Assembly: GCF_014206815.1 (NCBI RefSeq)
Contig: NZ_JACHNP010000001.1
Coordinates: 1,826,456-1,890,455 of the forward strand
Length of the DNA: 64,000 bases
Reading direction: 5' to 3'
Source of the DNA: Xanthomonas sp. F10
Lineage (GTDB): Bacteria > Pseudomonadota > Gammaproteobacteria > Xanthomonadales > Xanthomonadaceae
The notes beneath the pieces were generated by a model. That model had not been told where the DNA came from. It saw nothing but the letters and a program-made list of their open reading frames with translations, and did no database searches. Shown piece after piece: positions 2,404 to 11,453 of the stretch. How positions within the stretch are numbered: the stretch's first letter is position 1; every line of letters starts with the position of its first letter. The translations under genes and the position numbers were made by a program.

Positions 2404-4362
2404 TTACGCGCGCGGCGGGGCCGCCGCTTCGCCCTTGCGGCCGGTGCGGTACAGCAGCCAGCCGACGAAGGCCAGCAGGGCCAGGCCATACCACTGGTTG
2501 AGGTGGAACGCCTCCGGCAGCGCCAGCACGTCGGCGCGGCCCGAGGCCACGATCGGCACCGCGATGGCGATGCCCATCAGCGCCTCGCCGGTGATCAGGC
2601 CCGCTGCGAACAGGGTGCCCGGACGGTGCACGCGGTCGCGGCCCTCTTCGTCGTCGGCGCGGATCTTGTGGAAGCGCTCGACCAGATGGGTCAGCAGGCC
2701 GCCGAGGAAGATCGGCACCATCAGCTCCAGCGGCAGGTAGATGCCGATCGCCGCGGCCAGCACCGGCACGCGGAAACGCTTGCCGGTCTTCTTCAGCCAC
2801 TCGTCCAGGGCGATGATCGCCGCGCCGACGCCGGCGCCGATGCCGATCATGGTCCAAGGCAGTTCGCCGCCGAACAGGCCCTTGGCCACCGCCGCCATCA
2901 GCGTGGCCTGCGGCGCCGCCAGCGCATTGGGATGCTGCGGCGTGGCCGCACCGATGCCGTAGGCCTGGGCGAGCAGGTTCAGCACCGGCGCCATGATCAG
3001 CGCACACGAGAACGCGCCGATCGCCAGCATCAGCTGCTGCTTCCACGGCGTCGCGCCGACCAGGTAGCCGGCCTTCAGATCCTGCAGGTTGTCGCCGCCG
3101 ACCGCGGCGGCGCAGCAGACCACCGCACCGATCATGATCGCGGCGACCGCACCGATCGGCGAATCGCGCCCGAGCAGCAGCACCAGCACCGCCGAGGCGA
3201 ACAGGATGGTGGAGATGGTGATGCCGGAGACCGGATTGTTCGACGAACCGATCAGGCCGGCCAGATAGCCGGACACCGAGACGAACAGGAAGCCGGCGAC
3301 GATCATGATGATGGTCATCGGCACGCTGACGTGCCACTGGCCGACGATGGCCTGGTACAGGCCCAGCAGCGGCAGCGTGCACAGCAGCAGCGCCATCAGC
3401 ATCCACTTCATCGGCAGGTCGCGGTCGGTATCGGCCACCACGCCACCGCCGGTGCTCTTGCGCGCGGCGGCGAAGCCGCTCTTGACACCCGACAGCAGCG
3501 ACTTGCGCAGCGAGAACAGGGTCCACACGCCGCCGATCAGCATCGCGCCCACGCCCAGGTAGCGCACCTTGGCCGACCAGATGCCGAACGCGGCCTCAGC
3601 CGCCGGCGCATTGGCCAGGCCCTGCGCCAGCGCCGGATCGGAGCCCATGAAGAACTGCTGGTACAGCGGAATGGCCAGATGCCAGGACAGGATCGAGCCG
3701 GACAGCACCACGATGCCGACGTTGAGCCCGACGATGTAGCCCACGCCCAGCAGTGCCGGCGACAGATTGGTGCCGACGTAGCCGACCATCTTGCTGCTGC
3801 CGATGTAGGCGGCCTGGGCCCAGGTATCCGGGATCACCTTCAGGCCGCTGGCGGCGCCGAGTTTGACCAGCCCGCCGATCGCCGCCGACAGGCCGAGGAT
3901 CTTCAGCCCCGGCCCGGGATTCTCGCCGGCCTTGAGCACTTCCGCGGCGGCCTTGCCCTCCGGGAACGGCAGCGGATCCTCGACGATCATCGAGCGCCGC
4001 AGCGGCACCGAGAACAGCACGCCGAGCAGGCCGCCCATGCCGGCGATGCCCAGCACCCACCAGTACTTGAAGTCCGGCCAGTAGCCCATGATCACCAGCG
4101 CCGGGATGGTGAAGATCACCCCGGCCGCGATCGAGGAACCGGCCGAGGCGCCGGTCTGCACGATGTTGTTCTCGAGGATGGTGCCGCCGCCGAGCAGGCG
4201 CAGCACCCCCATCGACACCACCGCCGCCGGAATCGCGGTGGCGATGGTCAGGCCGGCGAACAGACCGAGGTAGGCATTGGCGGCGGACAGCACCACGGCC
4301 AGCACGATCGCCAGCACCACGGCACGGAACGTGAGCTGGCGCGGCGCGGCAGCGTTGTTCAT
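2404..4362 (-). CDS. OPT family oligopeptide transporter
   Basis: A 652-residue, highly hydrophobic protein with about 14-16 predicted membrane segments, the usual size for bacterial OPT-family carriers (proton-coupled uptake of oligopeptides or peptide-like chelates across the inner membrane). Recognisable stretches include NAYLGLFAGLTIATAIPAAV near the N-terminus, the SIAAGVIFTIPALV segment and GSSNNPVSGITI in the middle. The start MNNAAAPRQLTF is chosen over an upstream in-frame start at 4494 because AGGGG lies 5-6 bases before it and the upstream extension is not hydrophobic and runs into a repeat tract. It lies upstream of, and in the same direction as, the S9 peptidase at 1-1973, but 430 bases and a hairpin separate them. 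The substrate is not readable from sequence. Confidence 0.9.
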   Translation of the reverse strand: MNNAAAPRQLTFRAVVLAIVLAVVLSAANAYLGLFAGLTIATAIPAAVVSMGVLRLLGGGTILENNIVQTGASAGSSIAAGVIFTIPALVIMGYWPDFKYWWVLGIAGMGGLLGVLFSVPLRRSMIVEDPLPFPEGKAAAEVLKAGENPGPGLKILGLSAAIGGLVKLGAASGLKVIPDTWAQAAYIGSSKMVGYVGTNLSPALLGVGYIVGLNVGIVVLSGSILSWHLAIPLYQQFFMGSDPALAQGLANAPAAEAAFGIWSAKVRYLGVGAMLIGGVWTLFSLRKSLLSGVKSGFAAARKSTGGGVVADTDRDLPMKWMLMALLLCTLPLLGLYQAIVGQWHVSVPMTIIMIVAGFLFVSVSGYLAGLIGSSNNPVSGITISTILFASAVLVLLLGRDSPIGAVAAIMIGAVVCCAAAVGGDNLQDLKAGYLVGATPWKQQLMLAIGAFSCALIMAPVLNLLAQAYGIGAATPQHPNALAAPQATLMAAVAKGLFGGELPWTMIGIGAGVGAAIIALDEWLKKTGKRFRVPVLAAAIGIYLPLELMVPIFLGGLLTHLVERFHKIRADDEEGRDRVHRPGTLFAAGLITGEALMGIAIAVPIVASGRADVLALPEAFHLNQWYGLALLAFVGWLLYRTGRKGEAAAPPRA

Positions 4363-4460
4363 GGTTACCCCTGAAACGACAAAAACGCTTTGCACGCTAG
4401 CGTCTGGGGCGGGGCAAGTCCAGCCTAATGGCACCCAGCTTGTGGCACATGCCTGGGGGG

Positions 4461-4499
4461 CGGGGATTGGGGCGTTGGGATTGGGGATTCGCAAAGACA
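4461..4499. repeat. GGGATTGGGGATT tract
   Basis: The tract GGGGATTGGGGCGTTGGGAT continues into GGGGATTCGCAAAGACAG. It carries the same GGGATT-then-GCAAA ending as the tracts at 23905 and 50683. It lies between the divergent OPT and POT genes. Confidence 0.7.
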
Positions 4500-4512
4500 G
4501 CGGCAGTTGCTA

Positions 4513-4684
4513 GCCCCTCTCCCACCGGGAGAGGGGTTGGGGTGAGGGTCCGGCGGCACGCGGCGCCCCCCGCAATTGACTGCCCTGCCCGACCCTCATC
4601 CGCCCCTGCGGGGCACCTTCTCCCGATGGGAGAAGGAACAGCGAGCAGCCCCTCTCCTACCGGGAGAGGGGTTGGGGTGAGGGT
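4513..4684. repeat. Pair of CCCTCTCCC...GGGAGAGGGG hairpin repeats with an inverted relative between them
   Basis: A hairpin unit followed by GTTGGGGTGAGGGT occurs at 4513-4549 and again, nearly identical, at 4647-4684. Between them (4589-4635) is a related block reading CCCTCATCC ... CTTCTCCCGATGGGAGAAGG. This is a dispersed repeat common in Xanthomonas intergenic DNA. It lies between the divergent OPT and POT genes and could fold into several alternative hairpins. It has too few, unevenly spaced copies to be a CRISPR. Confidence 0.75.
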
Positions 4685-4720
4685 ATGCGCCCGCCGAACC
4701 GTCCATGCCGCGCACCGCCA

Positions 4721-4748
4721 TTCGAGCGAGCGCCGGCGCCCCTATACT
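4721..4748 (+). promoter_or_regulatory. Probable promoter of the POT transporter gene
   Basis: TATACT at 4743-4748 resembles a -10 box and TTCGAG at 4721-4726 a weak -35 at 16-base spacing. A transcript from here would begin near 4755. It would exclude the in-frame ATG at 4705 and supports the GTG start at 4780. Confidence 0.5.
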
Positions 4749-4779
4749 CCGCCGCTGCCTTCCTGCACCGAGAGCCGCC

Positions 4780-6546
4780 GTGTCCGTGTCCTCCCTGCCG
4801 CTGCGCGACGCGCGCGACGATTTCCTCGGCCATCCCAAGGGCGTCTACGTCTGCTTCTTCACCGAAATGTGGGAGCGCTTCTCGTTCTACGGCATGAAGG
4901 CCCTGCTGTTGCTGTACCTGACCAAGTACCACCTGTTCGGCGACGACGCCGGGCTCGACCTGCTCGGCGCCTACGGCGGCCTGGTGTACTGCGTGCCGGT
5001 GCTCGGCGGACTGCTCGCCGACCGTTGGCTGGGCATGCGCAAGGCGGTGGTGTTCGGCGGCCTGCTGCTGGTGCTCGGCCACATCGGCATGGCCTTCGAG
5101 GGTCACGCCGCCACCCGGATCAACGGCCAAGTGGTCCGAGATACCGCATCCCTGGGCGTGACCTACCTGTCGCTGGCGCTGATCATCATGGGCGTGGGCT
5201 TCCTCAAGCCCAACATCTCCACCATCGTCGGCAAGCTGTACCCGGCCGACGATCCGCGCCGCGACGCAGGCTTCTCGCTGTTCTACGCCGGCATCAACCT
5301 CGGCGCATTGTTTGCCTCGCTGGTGTGCGGCTTTCTCGGCGAAGCCTACGGCTGGCGCTACGGCTTCGGTGCGGCCGGCATCGGCATGCTGCTCGGCCTG
5401 GGCATGTTCCTGTGGGGCCAGAAATACCTGCACGGCCACGCCGAACCGGCGCAGCCGGCGCTACTGCGCGAGCGCGTGCTCGGCGTGCCGCGCGAATGGG
5501 CGATCTATCTCTGCGCGGTGCTGGGCGTGTTGCCGGTGGCCGCCTTGATGTGGGCCGCGGCCAACGGCGCCTTCAGCCTGGGCGGGGAAATCTCCCTGGC
5601 CCTGCTGCTGATGCTGCTGGTGCTCGGCGCGGTGCTGCTGTGGTTCGCCTGGTTCACCGGCACCCAGTGCACCGCGGTGCAGCGCCAGCAGATGATCGCG
5701 CTGATGGTGCTGATCGCGATGGCGCTGGTGTACTTCACCCTGTACGAGCAGACCTACGGCTCATGGGTCACCTTCACCGACCGGTTGATGACCAAGGACA
5801 TCGTGCCGTCGCTGGTGATCCGCGGCGGCACGCCCCTGCCCTGGTCGATCGCCTCGCTGCTGCTGGCGCCGCTGGGCTTCGTGCTGGCTGCCTCGCTGTC
5901 CGACCGGCGCCCCGGCTCGTCGGCGCCGCGGTTGCTGTTCGTCGGGGTCAGCGCCCTGATGCTGCTGTTCCTGATCCGCGACTGCCTGGTGCTGCCGCAG
6001 ACCGCCGGCTCCCTGACCTACCTGGGCGCCCTGTTTCTGGTGCTGCTGGCACCGCTGTTCGCGGCGCTGTGGGCATGGCTGGCGCGGCGCGGGCGCGAGC
6101 CATCCAAGCCGGCCAAGTCGGCGTTAGGGCTTCTGCTGGCCGGCCTGTCCTTCGTGCCGCTGGCACTGGCCGCGCAACAGGTCGGCGCGACCGGACAGAT
6201 GGCGAGCGTGTGGTGGCTGGTGCTGGCCTATTTCGTGCTGGAGGCCGGCGAGATGTGCCTGTCGCCGGTCGGCCTGTCGGCGGTGACGCAACTGGCGGTG
6301 CCGCGCGTGGTCAGCCTGATGATGGGCACCTGGTTCCTGGCCACGGCATTCTCCGAGGCGCTGGCGGCGCTGTTCGGCAAGCTCGCCGCGATCGAGGTCC
6401 CGGACGGCCAGACTCTCAACATCGCCGACGCCGCGGCCAAGTACGCGCACCTGTTCTGGCTGCTGCTGTGGATCGGCGTGGGCTGCGGCGTACTTGCCTT
6501 CCTGGCCGCGCCGCTGCTGCGGCGGATGATGCACGGGGTCCGCTGA
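4780..6546 (+). CDS. POT family proton-dependent di/tripeptide transporter
   Basis: A protein of 588 residues with about 12-14 membrane segments. Near the N-terminus it carries the POT/PTR2 signature FFTEMWERFSFYGMKALL, including the ExxERFxYYG proton-coupling motif. Next comes the first-domain segment GVGFLKPNISTIVGKLY. The family imports di- and tripeptides with protons across the inner membrane. The start is taken as GTG 4780 (VSVSSLPLRD) because the likely -10 box lies after the in-frame ATG at 4705. It is read away from the OPT gene, and the two plus the S9 peptidase make a peptide-uptake cluster. A strong hairpin follows the stop codon. Confidence 0.9.
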   Translation: MSVSSLPLRDARDDFLGHPKGVYVCFFTEMWERFSFYGMKALLLLYLTKYHLFGDDAGLDLLGAYGGLVYCVPVLGGLLADRWLGMRKAVVFGGLLLVLGHIGMAFEGHAATRINGQVVRDTASLGVTYLSLALIIMGVGFLKPNISTIVGKLYPADDPRRDAGFSLFYAGINLGALFASLVCGFLGEAYGWRYGFGAAGIGMLLGLGMFLWGQKYLHGHAEPAQPALLRERVLGVPREWAIYLCAVLGVLPVAALMWAAANGAFSLGGEISLALLLMLLVLGAVLLWFAWFTGTQCTAVQRQQMIALMVLIAMALVYFTLYEQTYGSWVTFTDRLMTKDIVPSLVIRGGTPLPWSIASLLLAPLGFVLAASLSDRRPGSSAPRLLFVGVSALMLLFLIRDCLVLPQTAGSLTYLGALFLVLLAPLFAALWAWLARRGREPSKPAKSALGLLLAGLSFVPLALAAQQVGATGQMASVWWLVLAYFVLEAGEMCLSPVGLSAVTQLAVPRVVSLMMGTWFLATAFSEALAALFGKLAAIEVPDGQTLNIADAAAKYAHLFWLLLWIGVGCGVLAFLAAPLLRRMMHGVR

Positions 6547-7022: not shown

Positions 7023-7067
7023 CTGGCTCGTCGCCGCATGACGACATATAGAAAAAGGAGCTTTGTG

Positions 7068-7232
7068 ATGAAAATCCAAGATGGCAAGCTTGAGAAGGAA
7101 GATTCTCTCTCCAATCCTTTCGCTATCCAGCTCGACGAGCCCATGCAAACTATCGCAGCGCCCGGCGTCTGCGAGATGAAGCCTTACCTCGGCGACGATT
7201 CTCGCTGGTACTCCACCCAGCCAGGCGGCTAA
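7068..7232 (+). CDS. RiPP precursor peptide, candidate lasso-peptide precursor
   Basis: A 54-residue peptide starting MKIQDGKLEKEDSLSN, with a near-ideal AAGGAG at 7055-7060, 7 bases before the ATG. The first half is charged and leader-like. The second half has one Cys, Trp, two Tyr, two Pro, and ends in QPGG. Lasso leaders usually have Thr at the second-last position. Taking Thr28-Ile29 as that end gives a 25-residue core beginning AAPGVCEMKP. Its Glu is then core residue 7, which would allow a 7-membered Ala1-Glu7 lactam ring like that of xanthomonins. No other acidic residue falls at positions 7-9. A cyclase gene follows after an attenuator. The classic leader motif YxxPxL is not clear, and no B protein gene is nearby, so the class stays an inference. 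Confidence 0.65.
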   Translation: MKIQDGKLEKEDSLSNPFAIQLDEPMQTIAAPGVCEMKPYLGDDSRWYSTQPGG

Positions 7233-7266
7233 CGCGAAGGCAATTGGATCAAGACGTCGCGATAGA

Positions 7267-7295
7267 GAACGCCGCCATCAGGCGGCGTTCTTTTG
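7267..7295 (+). terminator. Intrinsic terminator/attenuator between precursor and cyclase
   Basis: A perfect 10-bp stem, GAACGCCGCC with GGCGGCGTTC, around the loop ATCA is followed by TTTTGTT. It lies 34 bases after the precursor stop and 50 bases before the cyclase start. Such a partial terminator gives many precursor transcripts and fewer enzyme transcripts, a common arrangement in RiPP operons. Confidence 0.85.
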
Positions 7296-7345
7296 TTCGA
7301 AAACGCGATCACCATACGACAGCGTCCTCAGGCAGACGAGCCTCC

Positions 7346-8911
7346 ATGATCAAGGGCAACATCGCCTTTTCCGACCTCGAGCAACCGCCGCTGTGGCAGG
7401 CCAACACCCTGTGTCTCGGGAAAAGCCGGATCGCCCCCTACTGTCACTCTGCTGTGGAAACCGTCGTGGTCCGCACACAGGGACAATGGTTCGCCACGGT
7501 GCGCGAACGTTGCACGGATGTCGAATGGAAAAAAGACGATACGGGCATACTGGTCGATGCCGATCGATTCAACCAGCTCTACAAAGAGGCGTTACTATGG
7601 CCGCTCGACTATCTCATGATCGAAGTGGCGCAGGCCGGATGCCGATTGAAGTTGCGCGCCGGCCTGCTCGGATCGGCGCCAGTCTACTGCCGGGTCTCCG
7701 ATGGCGCAGTAGAAATCTCCTACGATCTGGCCGACTTTTTTTCCCGGCCCACCACCATCGACCTGGAGATGGCCAGCCGGCGTCTCGCGCTTAGCGCAGC
7801 GTATTCCGCCAGGCAATTGTGCTCGGGCGTTCTGATGCTGACAGAACGCGCCACCCTTTTCGCCGAGCCGGGCAAGGTCCGTTACGTCTATCCCTCGCCA
7901 GCCGAAACCGTCGCGCCTTCCGATGAAGCACTGATCGACTACGGCATGGAGCGATTCGGGCAACTGTTGCATCGCGCGGTTTCGATTCGACCTGCGTCGA
8001 CACAGGTGGCCGTCGAGTTGAGTGGGGGCATGGATTCGGCGACCGTCGCGTGCGCGTTGACGCGATCGCAGCACAACATCCTGAGCCTGGGAATCTTGCT
8101 CGATCAGGGACACAGTCAAACCCAGACCGAACGCCGCCGCCTGCTTGTCGAAACGCTAGGTCTTCGCGACACCGCCGTGAATATCGACGCGTTCCCGCCA
8201 ACGCTCGATCTACAACCGAGCGCGCGTCGACCGGACTATCCCCTTGCCGAGTTCTACCTCGAGGCATTCGAAAGCGTGTGGGACCGTGCTCAAGCGCAGG
8301 GCAGCGATCGGCTTTTCACCGGCGTTGGCGGAGACCAGCTGTTCCCGACGTACCGGAATGAGGAACGCTCCAACGGCAGCAGTCATGGCAGTGTGGCCGC
8401 AGAAGCCAAGCGCCGCGCGGAATTGTTGTTGACGCCCCGAGCGCTCAATGCATCGCGTTCGGTCAATGGATTCGATGCTCCCGCCGGCCCCTTATCTGCA
8501 TCGGTGTTGGCATCGAGCATGTGCCAGGCTCCCTACCTGCTTCGGCGAGGCCTTTGGCCGGTCAATCCCCTAAGCGATCCACATCTGGTTGCCTTTTGCC
8601 GGGGCCTGCCCCTCGAGTGCCGTCAAGATCGAGAAACGATGTGGCGCTATTTACGGGCCAACGTAGGCGACATATTTCCACGGGATTATTGCAAGGAAAC
8701 GTTCGCTCACGTGCTCCCCGAGTTGATCGCACATCACGCCAGGACGATCGCCATGCAACTGAGCGAGTGCGCCCTTGCCGACCTGGGCCTGGTCGACCGA
8801 GACGCCGTACTGCAACTGCTGGACGAACTGGTGTCGACACGCGCGCGTCCGCTGACGGCGCCGTTGATCTCGTTCCTTTGGCTGGAGCGCTTCGTTCGTC
8901 AGTTTGCCTGA
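7346..8911 (+). CDS. Asparagine-synthetase-like lasso-type macrolactam cyclase
   Basis: A protein of 521 residues. The C-terminal half has the ATP-pyrophosphatase signature SGGMDSATVACAL near residue 226 and GVGGDQLFPTY near 327, as in asparagine synthetase B. The N-terminal half keeps the shape of a glutamine amidotransferase domain but lacks the catalytic Cys2 after the start Met, as lasso C proteins (McjC type, of similar length) do. These enzymes adenylate a side-chain carboxylate of the precursor core and close an isopeptide ring. ATG 7346 is preferred to an in-frame TTG at 7244, which lies before the attenuator hairpin. GC is lower than in the flanks, suggesting transfer. No B1/B2 protease or ABC transporter gene follows. 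A divergent asparagine synthetase acting on another substrate cannot be excluded. Confidence 0.75.
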   Translation: MIKGNIAFSDLEQPPLWQANTLCLGKSRIAPYCHSAVETVVVRTQGQWFATVRERCTDVEWKKDDTGILVDADRFNQLYKEALLWPLDYLMIEVAQAGCRLKLRAGLLGSAPVYCRVSDGAVEISYDLADFFSRPTTIDLEMASRRLALSAAYSARQLCSGVLMLTERATLFAEPGKVRYVYPSPAETVAPSDEALIDYGMERFGQLLHRAVSIRPASTQVAVELSGGMDSATVACALTRSQHNILSLGILLDQGHSQTQTERRRLLVETLGLRDTAVNIDAFPPTLDLQPSARRPDYPLAEFYLEAFESVWDRAQAQGSDRLFTGVGGDQLFPTYRNEERSNGSSHGSVAAEAKRRAELLLTPRALNASRSVNGFDAPAGPLSASVLASSMCQAPYLLRRGLWPVNPLSDPHLVAFCRGLPLECRQDRETMWRYLRANVGDIFPRDYCKETFAHVLPELIAHHARTIAMQLSECALADLGLVDRDAVLQLLDELVSTRARPLTAPLISFLWLERFVRQFA

Positions 8912-9252: not shown

Positions 9253-11235
9253 TTACTGCTTGGTAGGCGCCGGCGCCGCCTGCGCACCACCCAACGACTT
9301 GCTCAGGAACGCCAGCAGCCGGGTGTAGAACTCGCGTCGATGCGCCTCGGTGTAGAAGCCGTGGCCCTCGGTCGGGACGTACAGCGTCTCCACCGGCACG
9401 CCCGCCTTCTTCAGCGCGGCTTCCATCTTCTTGGAGTGCTGGATGGGCGCAGTCTGATCCTCGCCACCAGCAGCAAGAAATACAGGTACCTTGATCTTGT
9501 CGGCCAGGTTCACTGGTGAAATCGCCGCCAATTCGTTGCCCGTCCCCATCCAGTCACGCAGAAAGTTCTGGCTGGAATCGCGCAGCTGGGCATCACCCCT
9601 GACATACATCATCGGCAGGTCGTAGACGCCGACATAGCCTGCCGCGCAGCGATACAGTGTCGGCTCCTTGGCCACGCCCATCAACGACGCATAGGCGCCA
9701 TAGCTGGCACCGTACATGCAGATGCGCTGCGGGTCGGCGATGCCCTGGTCGATCGCCCAGCGCGTGGCGTCGGTGAGGTCGTCCTGCATCTTGCCGCCCC
9801 ACTGACCGGCGCCCGCCAACTGGAACGCACGCCCGTAGTTGCTGGAGCCGCGATAATTGACCTGCAGCACCGCGTAACCGGCGCTGGCCAGGATCTGTGC
9901 GTCCTCGTCGAACATGCCGTTATCGAAGATCCCGAACGGCCCGCCATGCGGCATCACCACCATCGGCACCTTGCCGGATTTGGCCGCCGCCGGCAGTGTC
10001 ACGAAGCCGTGCAGCGCCAGACCATCCCGCGCCTGCAGCGTGATCGGCCGCACCTCCGCCAGCTTCGGCGGCTGCAGTGCGGCGCGGCGCGCGAACACGA
10101 AATCGGCCTTCTTGGCGACGGTGTCGAACAGGTAGAACTCGCCCGGATTGCGCCCGGACTGCACGTTGACGAGGTTGAGCCGGCCGTCGCGCGTACTGGA
10201 GGTGACGTACACCGCCTGTCCCGGGAAGGCCGCTTCCAGCGAACGCTGGGTCTTGGCTTCGGGCGAATTCGTATCGAAGAACACGCTGCGTGGCGTGTCG
10301 CCAAGTACCTCGATCCCGACGGGGACGCGGGAGCCATGGCGATACATGATCGCGAAAGGATCGGCTAGGGTATCGCGCGCCACTACCTTTCGCTCGCCAG
10401 TGTCTACATTCCAGGACTCGACCGCATCGCTACCTTTAGCCTGCTCGACTTGAAGGAAGGCGACACGCCCATCCTCAGAAAAGCCAATCGGCGTCTCTAC
10501 GTGATGACTGACGCTTTCGTCATTGATCAGCTTCCAGTCACTGCCCTGCGCATCGCGGTAGAACAGTTTACTGGCGTTGTCCGCATCGGCGCCCCAGGCA
10601 AAACGCACTTTGCCTTGGCCATCGGAAAAAAATTTCGCCCTACGGACGCTCGGCGAACCGACCAATGCGCGCCTGCGGCCGCTGTACACATCCATGACCT
10701 CGGTGCGGCTGTAAGGATCCTTGCTCACGCTGAAGGGGCGCACACGAATGATGACATTACGATCATCGCCGGGCAGCGGCCCAACCATGTCGGCAATGAC
10801 ATCTTCCACCTTCTTGGTCTGAATCAGCGTACCCGGCCCGTTGCCGGTCACGCGCTGGCCCACCAACAACTCCGCCGCGCCGCCGTCGGCGTTGATCGCG
10901 AACAGTTCTCCGGTCCCCCAGGGCCGGTCCCGCTGCCCGATCTTCTGGACCATGTTGAACAGCACGCGCGTGTCGTTGACCCACACGAAATCGGAGACGT
11001 GCGTGTTCTTCTCCATCGAGAAGCTGCCGACGATCTTGTTGTCGGCACGGCGCATGATCGCCAGCGCGGTGCGATCCTCCAGGGGCACCGTCGCGGCGTA
11101 GTACTCGCCGGTGGGCGACAACTTCAGTGTTTCCACCTGCTCCTTGACCAGGTACGGCGCCAGATCCACCTGCGCCCACGCATTCCCCGCTCCCAGCAGA
11201 CACAACAACGCGACTGCGTGCAGTCCCCTTTTCAT
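9253..11235 (-). CDS. Secreted S9 (prolyl-oligopeptidase-like) peptidase
   Basis: A protein of 660 residues starting MKRGLHAVALLCLLGAGNAW, a signal peptide cut near AWA-Q. An N-terminal propeller is followed by a hydrolase domain with HGGPFG (oxyanion region), MYGASYGAYASL (Ser near residue 510), GGEDQTAP (Asp near 593) and EGHGFY (His near 623). The triad is complete. The start at 11235 has AGGGG upstream; the longer in-frame start at 11442 adds a segment with no signal character. It ends head-to-head with the cyclase gene. Lasso-peptide isopeptidases of proteobacteria also belong to this superfamily, so a link to the neighbouring precursor is possible, but general peptide degradation is the default reading. 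A decayed paralogue lies on the other side of the cassette. Confidence 0.9.
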   Translation of the reverse strand: MKRGLHAVALLCLLGAGNAWAQVDLAPYLVKEQVETLKLSPTGEYYAATVPLEDRTALAIMRRADNKIVGSFSMEKNTHVSDFVWVNDTRVLFNMVQKIGQRDRPWGTGELFAINADGGAAELLVGQRVTGNGPGTLIQTKKVEDVIADMVGPLPGDDRNVIIRVRPFSVSKDPYSRTEVMDVYSGRRRALVGSPSVRRAKFFSDGQGKVRFAWGADADNASKLFYRDAQGSDWKLINDESVSHHVETPIGFSEDGRVAFLQVEQAKGSDAVESWNVDTGERKVVARDTLADPFAIMYRHGSRVPVGIEVLGDTPRSVFFDTNSPEAKTQRSLEAAFPGQAVYVTSSTRDGRLNLVNVQSGRNPGEFYLFDTVAKKADFVFARRAALQPPKLAEVRPITLQARDGLALHGFVTLPAAAKSGKVPMVVMPHGGPFGIFDNGMFDEDAQILASAGYAVLQVNYRGSSNYGRAFQLAGAGQWGGKMQDDLTDATRWAIDQGIADPQRICMYGASYGAYASLMGVAKEPTLYRCAAGYVGVYDLPMMYVRGDAQLRDSSQNFLRDWMGTGNELAAISPVNLADKIKVPVFLAAGGEDQTAPIQHSKKMEAALKKAGVPVETLYVPTEGHGFYTEAHRREFYTRLLAFLSKSLGGAQAAPAPTKQ

Positions 11236-11453
11236 TCCTTGTTCCCCTGTTCCTGTTGGCGTGACGTACGCGTGAAGTCTAATCCAAGCGCTGCCGCTGG
11301 CGCACCGGAACCCCGGGCGCCGACCTCCAGCGACGTCACGGCCGAAAGCCAAAAAGGGCGTGCAGCCTGGAGGCCGTACGCCCGTCCTCTGCCACGGAAA
11401 CGGAAACGGAAGCGGGCACCGATCGAACCGATCGCCCCACATCCCGCGGTCGC

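Follow-up and report, generated by a model that had tools for sequence, protein, structure and literature searches.

What is made, if anything, by a short open reading frame (ORF) and the asparagine synthetase (AS)-like gene downstream of it in Xanthomonas sp. F10? The two genes lie in a stretch of 64,000 nucleotides, here called the window (positions 1826456-1890455 of contig NZ_JACHNP010000001.1, within an analysed genome of 4.78 Mb), and all positions below are those of the window. The original prediction was a lasso peptide or another macrolactam. Comparative analyses indicate that the small ORF and the enzyme gene very probably form a cassette for a ribosomally synthesized and post-translationally modified peptide (RiPP), in which the small ORF encodes the precursor. 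The reading preferred here, with a probability just short of even, is that the AS-like enzyme of this two-gene cassette makes a macrolactam between the side chains of Lys38 and Asp44. The argument rests on the following features:

7055..7060, + strand: Shine-Dalgarno sequence AAGGAG of the precursor gene, read from the sequence (Shine-Dalgarno score 6 by script)
7068..7232, + strand: precursor peptide gene, 54 aa, MKIQDGKLEKEDSLSNPFAIQLDEPMQTIAAPGVCEMKPYLGDDSRWYSTQPGG; conserved, under purifying selection, with relatives that adjoin AS-like genes
7113..7145, + strand: leader motif NPFAIQLDEPM, residues 16-26, found again in upstream ORFs of relatives; putative recognition role
7179..7199, + strand: Lys38-Asp44 (KPYLGDD), proposed seven-residue ring; Lys38 codon 7179-7181, Asp44 codon 7197-7199
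7346..8911, + strand: 521-aa AS-like enzyme without Cys2, candidate macrolactam synthetase; SGGMDS 226-231, GxGGD 326-330, KE 450-451

Judged by its sequence, the small ORF is a real, conserved coding gene. Among 10 relatives, represented by one copy per locus, variable columns at codon positions 1, 2 and 3 number 9, 6 and 35 of 55 codons (stop counted), and this concentration of variation at the third position marks the ORF as coding. The 54-aa ORF with a strong ribosome site is thereby confirmed, and the ORF is conserved in relatives, a lack of which the original prediction had named as a possible refutation. Relatives of the ORF adjoin AS-like genes in other groups as well, and in Xanthomonadales NPFAIQLDEPM is the presumed recognition stretch of the precursor.

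The enzyme matches PF00733 (E 7e-13) and, by model, has the AS fold. However, it lacks the glutaminase Cys: residue 2 is Ile, and Cys at position 2 is found in none of 47 aligned relatives, a single one of which (L034) has Cys at position 3. Its nearest NCBIfam models are those of asparagine synthase (TIGR01536; 28.9 bits against a cut-off of 267.1), albusnodin/ikarugamycin cyclase (NF033561; 31.6 against 300) and lasso cyclase (NF033535; 21.7 against 525), and its scores lie far under each of these curated cut-offs. Across the family, the lasso cyclase model is matched by 25 of 47 members at E up to 0.01, and the albusnodin/ikarugamycin model by 44. Among the solved structures nearest to the enzyme are beta-lactam synthetase and carbapenam synthetase (CarA), with which it shares an AS fold without the glutaminase Cys. 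A true asparagine synthetase was rejected on the TIGR01536 score and the missing Cys2; the concern that the homologues might be such enzymes has not been borne out, and the pairing of a RiPP-type precursor with an AS-like enzyme devoid of the glutaminase Cys is supported.

In comparison to the rest of the precursor, one pair of residues recurs throughout: a Lys and an Asp with five or six residues between them (K-x5/6-D). All 27 distinct tails, drawn from every group, have the pair (x5 in 21, x6 in 6); these tails are kin and thus not independent trials. The next best residue pair reaches 22. When the letters of the tails were shuffled, K-x5/6-D occurred on average in 4.0 of 17 and 1.9 of 10. 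Similarly, when Xanthomonadales loci were searched with no requirement other than the leader motif, 41 distinct tails were obtained, all with the pair. Among 11 diverse peptides, no other residue pair within a distance of 12 does as well as Asp six positions after Lys, which occurs in 10, and the eleventh, from Rudaea, carries K-x6-D; in shuffles of these peptides any pair reached 10 in 2 of 2000, and Lys-Asp at this distance never exceeded 7.

Precursors were additionally picked by a motif-blind rule, namely the strongest Shine-Dalgarno match, 4 nt or longer, before an ORF of 28-80 aa that ends at most 200 nt from the enzyme gene. Of 30 enzyme clusters, 26 received a pick by this rule, and 25 of these picks contain K-x5/6-D (the miss is L063); some picks start at an inner ATG, which leaves the motif unaffected. 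As for the other four clusters, the script picked wrongly in L032 and L036, both of which contain the ORF, L073 has the motif without a Shine-Dalgarno sequence, and the precursors of L088 lie farther upstream, beyond the 200-nt limit. A cruder rule that took the ORF nearest the enzyme, often out of frame, and that found the motif in 20 of 30 clusters, was replaced by this one. Two further properties of the tails are relevant: the Lys is not replaced by Arg in those typed, and 15 of 27 end in Gly, the rest in one of nine other residues (10 kinds in all). Because one amine and one acid persist while their surroundings vary, Lys and Asp are most simply read as the reacting groups.

The proposed mechanism is as follows. 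In the 54-aa precursor, an N-terminal leader containing NPFAIQLDEPM would precede a core at the C-terminus. After binding this peptide, the AS-like enzyme would adenylate the side-chain carboxylate of Asp44 with ATP, whereupon the side-chain (epsilon) amine of Lys38 would attack the activated Asp44 to give an isopeptide macrolactam of seven residues, or eight in K-x6-D members. The tail SRWYSTQPGG would stay free of the ring, and trimming and export could be performed by general or unlinked proteins. Since the nucleophile would be a side chain, leader cleavage would not be needed before ring closure, and the lack of a B protein, the leader peptidase of lasso systems, would be explained. The product may have an antibacterial or signalling role.

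Between the precursor and enzyme genes stands one further element:

7264..7293, + strand: hairpin with a 13-bp stem and loop ATCA (12 matched pairs by script; 13 by fold, one of them G-U)

TGTTCG follows it. The attenuator originally proposed after the small ORF is this hairpin; the terminator scan did not list it. Of 25 clusters examined, 22 have a hairpin with arms of at least 9 matched pairs in the gap between the two genes (L013, L034 and L035 being without), and two of the 22, in L021 and L048, were equalled by the best of 20 letter shuffles. The element is probably a partial terminator that would keep the precursor in excess over the enzyme. The arrangement of precursors differs in some loci. 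Two precursors occur in one locus in L004, L054, L031 and L088, and in L063, L065 and L089 a precursor with an NTFGIQLEQPM-like leader and a core HKPYGMVID lies downstream of the enzyme. These downstream precursors were first found by a pattern that included K-x5/6-D, and those of L063 and L089 were found again without it.

The surroundings of the cassette were compared in 25 oriented Xanthomonadales loci, mostly with 7-10 kb on each side; two genomes occur twice, leaving 23 distinct loci. Among proteins of at least 110 aa, the families recurring in at least four loci at E up to 1e-15, thresholds that miss distant kin such as the S9 stretches of L009 and L080, consist of the AS-like protein, frames that overlap with it and, in four loci, a LysR-like regulator. 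No recurrent neighbour of this size is of the Transglut_core3 type in the 25 loci, and by these comparisons the cassette appears to be two genes. Family scans of three neighbouring genes in the window identify an OPT peptide transporter, a POT peptide transporter and an S9 peptidase. OPT and POT are importer families, and the scans agree with the original observation that neither a B protein nor an exporter adjoins the cassette. The OPT oligopeptide transporter, POT oligopeptide:H+ symporter and S9 peptidase flank it at 2404-6546 and 9253-11442.

A direct search with these neighbours found S9-like stretches near four of the 23 distinct loci: the window, L087, L009 (the same as L085) and L080, those of L009 and L080 at 23-28% identity. 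The S9 peptidase directly adjoins the cassette in the window, in genome G008 (L087) and in X. sacchari R1. POT and OPT transporters were found only in the window and L087; the search gave neither of them for the remaining 21 distinct loci. X. sacchari R1 (NZ_CP010410.1; L015) has the same neighbours, in the form of a POT symporter, small ORF, AS-like gene, S9 peptidase and LacI; its region is on a 508-kb record labelled plasmid, and that of the window is in a contig of at least 2.4 Mb. Within the whole genome of strain F10, Transglut_core3 (PF13471) gave no match at E up to 0.1 among 62 candidates scored; in 14 control genomes the same model matched in four, over its cut-off in one. The genome has one strong PqqD match, which lies among PqqC- and PqqE-like frames (recognised by eye).

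The main rival to a side-chain ring is a lasso in which an unlinked protease cuts just before Lys38, the alpha-amine of the resulting Lys1 is joined to Asp7 (Asp8 in other members) and the tail is threaded. If the core begins at Lys, Asp stands at core position 7 or 8, so that K-x5 and K-x6 would correspond to lasso ring sizes of 7 and 8; W or Y in the tails could serve as plugs, and the enzymes bear the weak likeness to the lasso and albusnodin/ikarugamycin cyclase models given above. Residue 1 of lasso peptides is usually Gly, but a passage of PMC4979651 notes that others occur. Two findings favour this lasso and weigh against the side-chain ring. Ala occupies position -2 in 10 of 27 tails, and putative lassos with Ile, Val or Ala at -2 are mentioned in part of PMC10368454; additionally, S9 peptidases are near four of the 23 distinct loci. 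However, the genome has no Transglut_core3 protein, no protein of at least 110 aa other than the LysR-like one recurs beside the cassette in at least four loci, residue -2 is Glu in the window and is Thr or Val in only 2 of 27 tails, and an invariant Lys1 is without rationale in lasso chemistry. A Lys1 lasso is therefore judged unlikely, if still worth serious consideration.

Rather improbable is a second rival, in which the enzyme modifies Asp or the C-terminus in another way (amidation by free ammonia or another amine, an aspartimide or a nitrile) and Lys serves for recognition. There is precedent for such chemistry: according to sections of PMC13060819, TsrC and ScdTA amidate C-termini, and PesC forms a C-terminal nitrile and accepts ammonia too. 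The C-terminal Gly of 15 tails fits the idea, but the 10 kinds of C-terminal residue do not, and C-terminal amidation or nitrile formation is accordingly less likely. The absence, in 47 of 47 enzymes, of the Cys2 that glutamine use would require and the failure of Arg to replace Lys also argue against this rival.

Very improbable is a third, in which no peptide is modified and the small ORF instead regulates a metabolic AS-like enzyme, as its leader or upstream ORF. A short ORF followed by a hairpin does resemble an attenuator, but the leader and the Lys/Asp core are conserved at the protein level, four loci have two precursors each, and the precursors downstream of the enzyme are in a place impossible for an attenuator leader.

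The lasso of the original prediction (Thr28 at -2, Ala30 as residue 1, Glu36 as the ring acid, and the S9 peptidase or a trans-acting B protein as protease) is hardly credible: the required letters are present in the window and an S9 gene adjoins the cassette here and in X. sacchari R1, but the Thr, Ile or Val at -2 that characterizes lasso precursors is not kept, residue 28 being Asn in seven of 10 relatives and Thr in only three (L001, L006 and L015), the Glu required by this register, two residues ahead of Lys, occurs in 5 of 27 distinct tails, 19 of the 23 distinct loci show no S9 peptidase, and no B protein was found in the genome. Breakage of the Thr-2/Glu7 pattern had been named as refuting, and a lasso in this register was rejected on conservation. 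The S9 peptidase, a weakly placed substitute for B, was rejected as the leader protease, a trans-acting B is unlikely given the PF13471 and PqqD results, and of the options originally offered, a product that differs in class is the best supported.

Relatives of the enzyme occur both within its own lineage and outside it. In the genus, 8 of 20 genomes, strain F10 counted, have a match. With profile A1, matches number 7 among 247 genomes at family level; at class level (369 genomes) and phylum level (398) the single match is the own genome. In the family of G617, which is Rhodanobacteraceae as judged by its matches to Rhodanobacter, Rudaea and Dyella loci, profile A2 (E up to 1e-15) matched 37 of 217 genomes; 31 matches are strong (best E <1e-180) and six weak. 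The six weak genomes were rejected as sources of lasso cyclases, since their frames are amidotransferase-like, with an MCG opening in four. Among rhizobia, 3 of 146 genomes match in the genus of G725 (Mesorhizobium, judged by coordinates common to pM0123d) and 19 of 148, one a fragment, in that of G652 (Rhizobium, judged likewise by pRL10). Plasmid records with matches at E up to 1e-3, some of which span only part of the enzyme, number 53: Rhizobium 33, Bradyrhizobium 13, Streptomyces 3, Mesorhizobium 2, Xanthomonas 1 and Aminobacter 1. In an enzyme tree of 47 rows, the three Streptomyces rows form one group and the rhizobial rows fall into several; it has long branches whose position is uncertain.

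At one locus, L009 of Rhodanobacter sp. ANJX3, the enzyme is 82% identical to that of the window and the precursor is nearly identical, pointing to a possible recent transfer from one family to another. Upstream of the enzyme in L009 is an S9-like stretch with 28% identity to the S9 peptidase of the window. Genomes may also have several matches (three in G1011 and two in G1012), and separate AS-like genes with different precursors occur in one genome at L073 (G1012) and at L077, L088 and L089 (G1011). The own genome has three PF00733 places besides the enzyme of the window. The best family match seen for the enzyme is PHROGs phrog_29141 (function unassigned), which spans its whole length (E 2.6e-57) and is matched by 37 of 37 members. 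No enzyme relatives were found in phage records at E up to 1e-5 or in four viral-contig scans, and phrog_29141 perhaps stems from a provirus call. A defence system was rejected, as a PADLOC search of four proteins gave no match at E up to 0.01.

In 12 annotated rhizobial regions (L021, unannotated there, was left out; L035 and L112 are near copies), an acyl-homoserine-lactone synthase is in the stretch shown in four (L032, L033, L036 and L038). On pRL10, the AS-like gene lies between this synthase and nifH, a context suggesting quorum-sensing or nodule-related expression of the cassette. A phosphotransferase gene comes next after the enzyme, immediately or at a distance of up to about 150 nt, in six regions (L016, L017, L034, L035, L036 and L112), and a GNAT gene comes after it in four (L016, L034, L035 and L112). 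Of the three Streptomyces regions, two contain an ATP-binding cassette gene located downstream, and the third has a methyltransferase. The neighbours in rhizobia and Streptomyces suggest a product that is exported and sometimes further decorated. The AS-like gene is seemingly broken on pRL10 of R. johnstonii 3841 (L032) and in further Rhizobium genomes (L106, L107 and L111, one TGA inside); the pRL10 precursor ORF is intact.

The wider proposal, somewhat less than evenly probable, is that these cassettes represent a new RiPP class, in which an AS-family enzyme joins Lys and Asp side chains in an uncut precursor, encoded by a protease-free two-gene cassette of Gammaproteobacteria, rhizobial symbiosis plasmids and Streptomyces. 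If so, the side-chain Lys-Asp ring would be a further route to peptide lactams, parallel to ATP-grasp chemistry, and two genes without a required protease would be easy to express and reusable for peptide stapling. Should the tail be threaded when the ring forms, a lasso-like knot would result, with a side chain as its point of closure and the leader still in place. Some rhizobial cassettes are beside nitrogen-fixation and quorum-sensing genes, and their product may matter in root nodules. No description of the cassette family was found in the open full-text literature, a weak negative since subscription papers are mostly outside that scope.

AS-family enzymes are known in RiPP pathways as makers of N-terminal lasso rings, C-terminal amides and one C-terminal nitrile. 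The cassette resembles lasso systems with McjC-type cyclases in its small precursor, its AS-like enzyme, the activation of an acid for a macrolactam and a possible ring of 7 or 8; unlike them, it has no B protein that was found, does not keep Thr(-2), has a recurrent Lys, and encodes an enzyme far below the lasso cyclase cut-off. Beta-lactam synthetase and CarA perform intramolecular amide formation without glutamine. They share the AS fold but act on small molecules, whereas a ribosomal peptide is the likely substrate of the cassette enzyme because a conserved precursor adjoins its gene. Microviridins and other graspetides offer a parallel to the proposed bond, a Lys-to-acid side-chain lactam with which K-x5/6-D is consistent. 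However, the Lys-Glu side-chain lactams of microviridins are, as a passage of PMC4979651 states, made by ATP-grasp ligases, and the cassette enzyme belongs to PF00733, with an AS fold by model. TsrC, ScdTA and PesC (nitrilobacillin) are, like it, AS-like enzymes acting on ribosomal peptides, but they use the C-terminal carboxylate, whereas the C-terminus of the cassette precursors varies and the recurrent acid is internal. According to part of PMC13060819, about 3,800 AS-like proteins are near RiPP elements, of which about 3,500 are lasso-linked and about 300 uncharacterised, and the present family may be among the latter.
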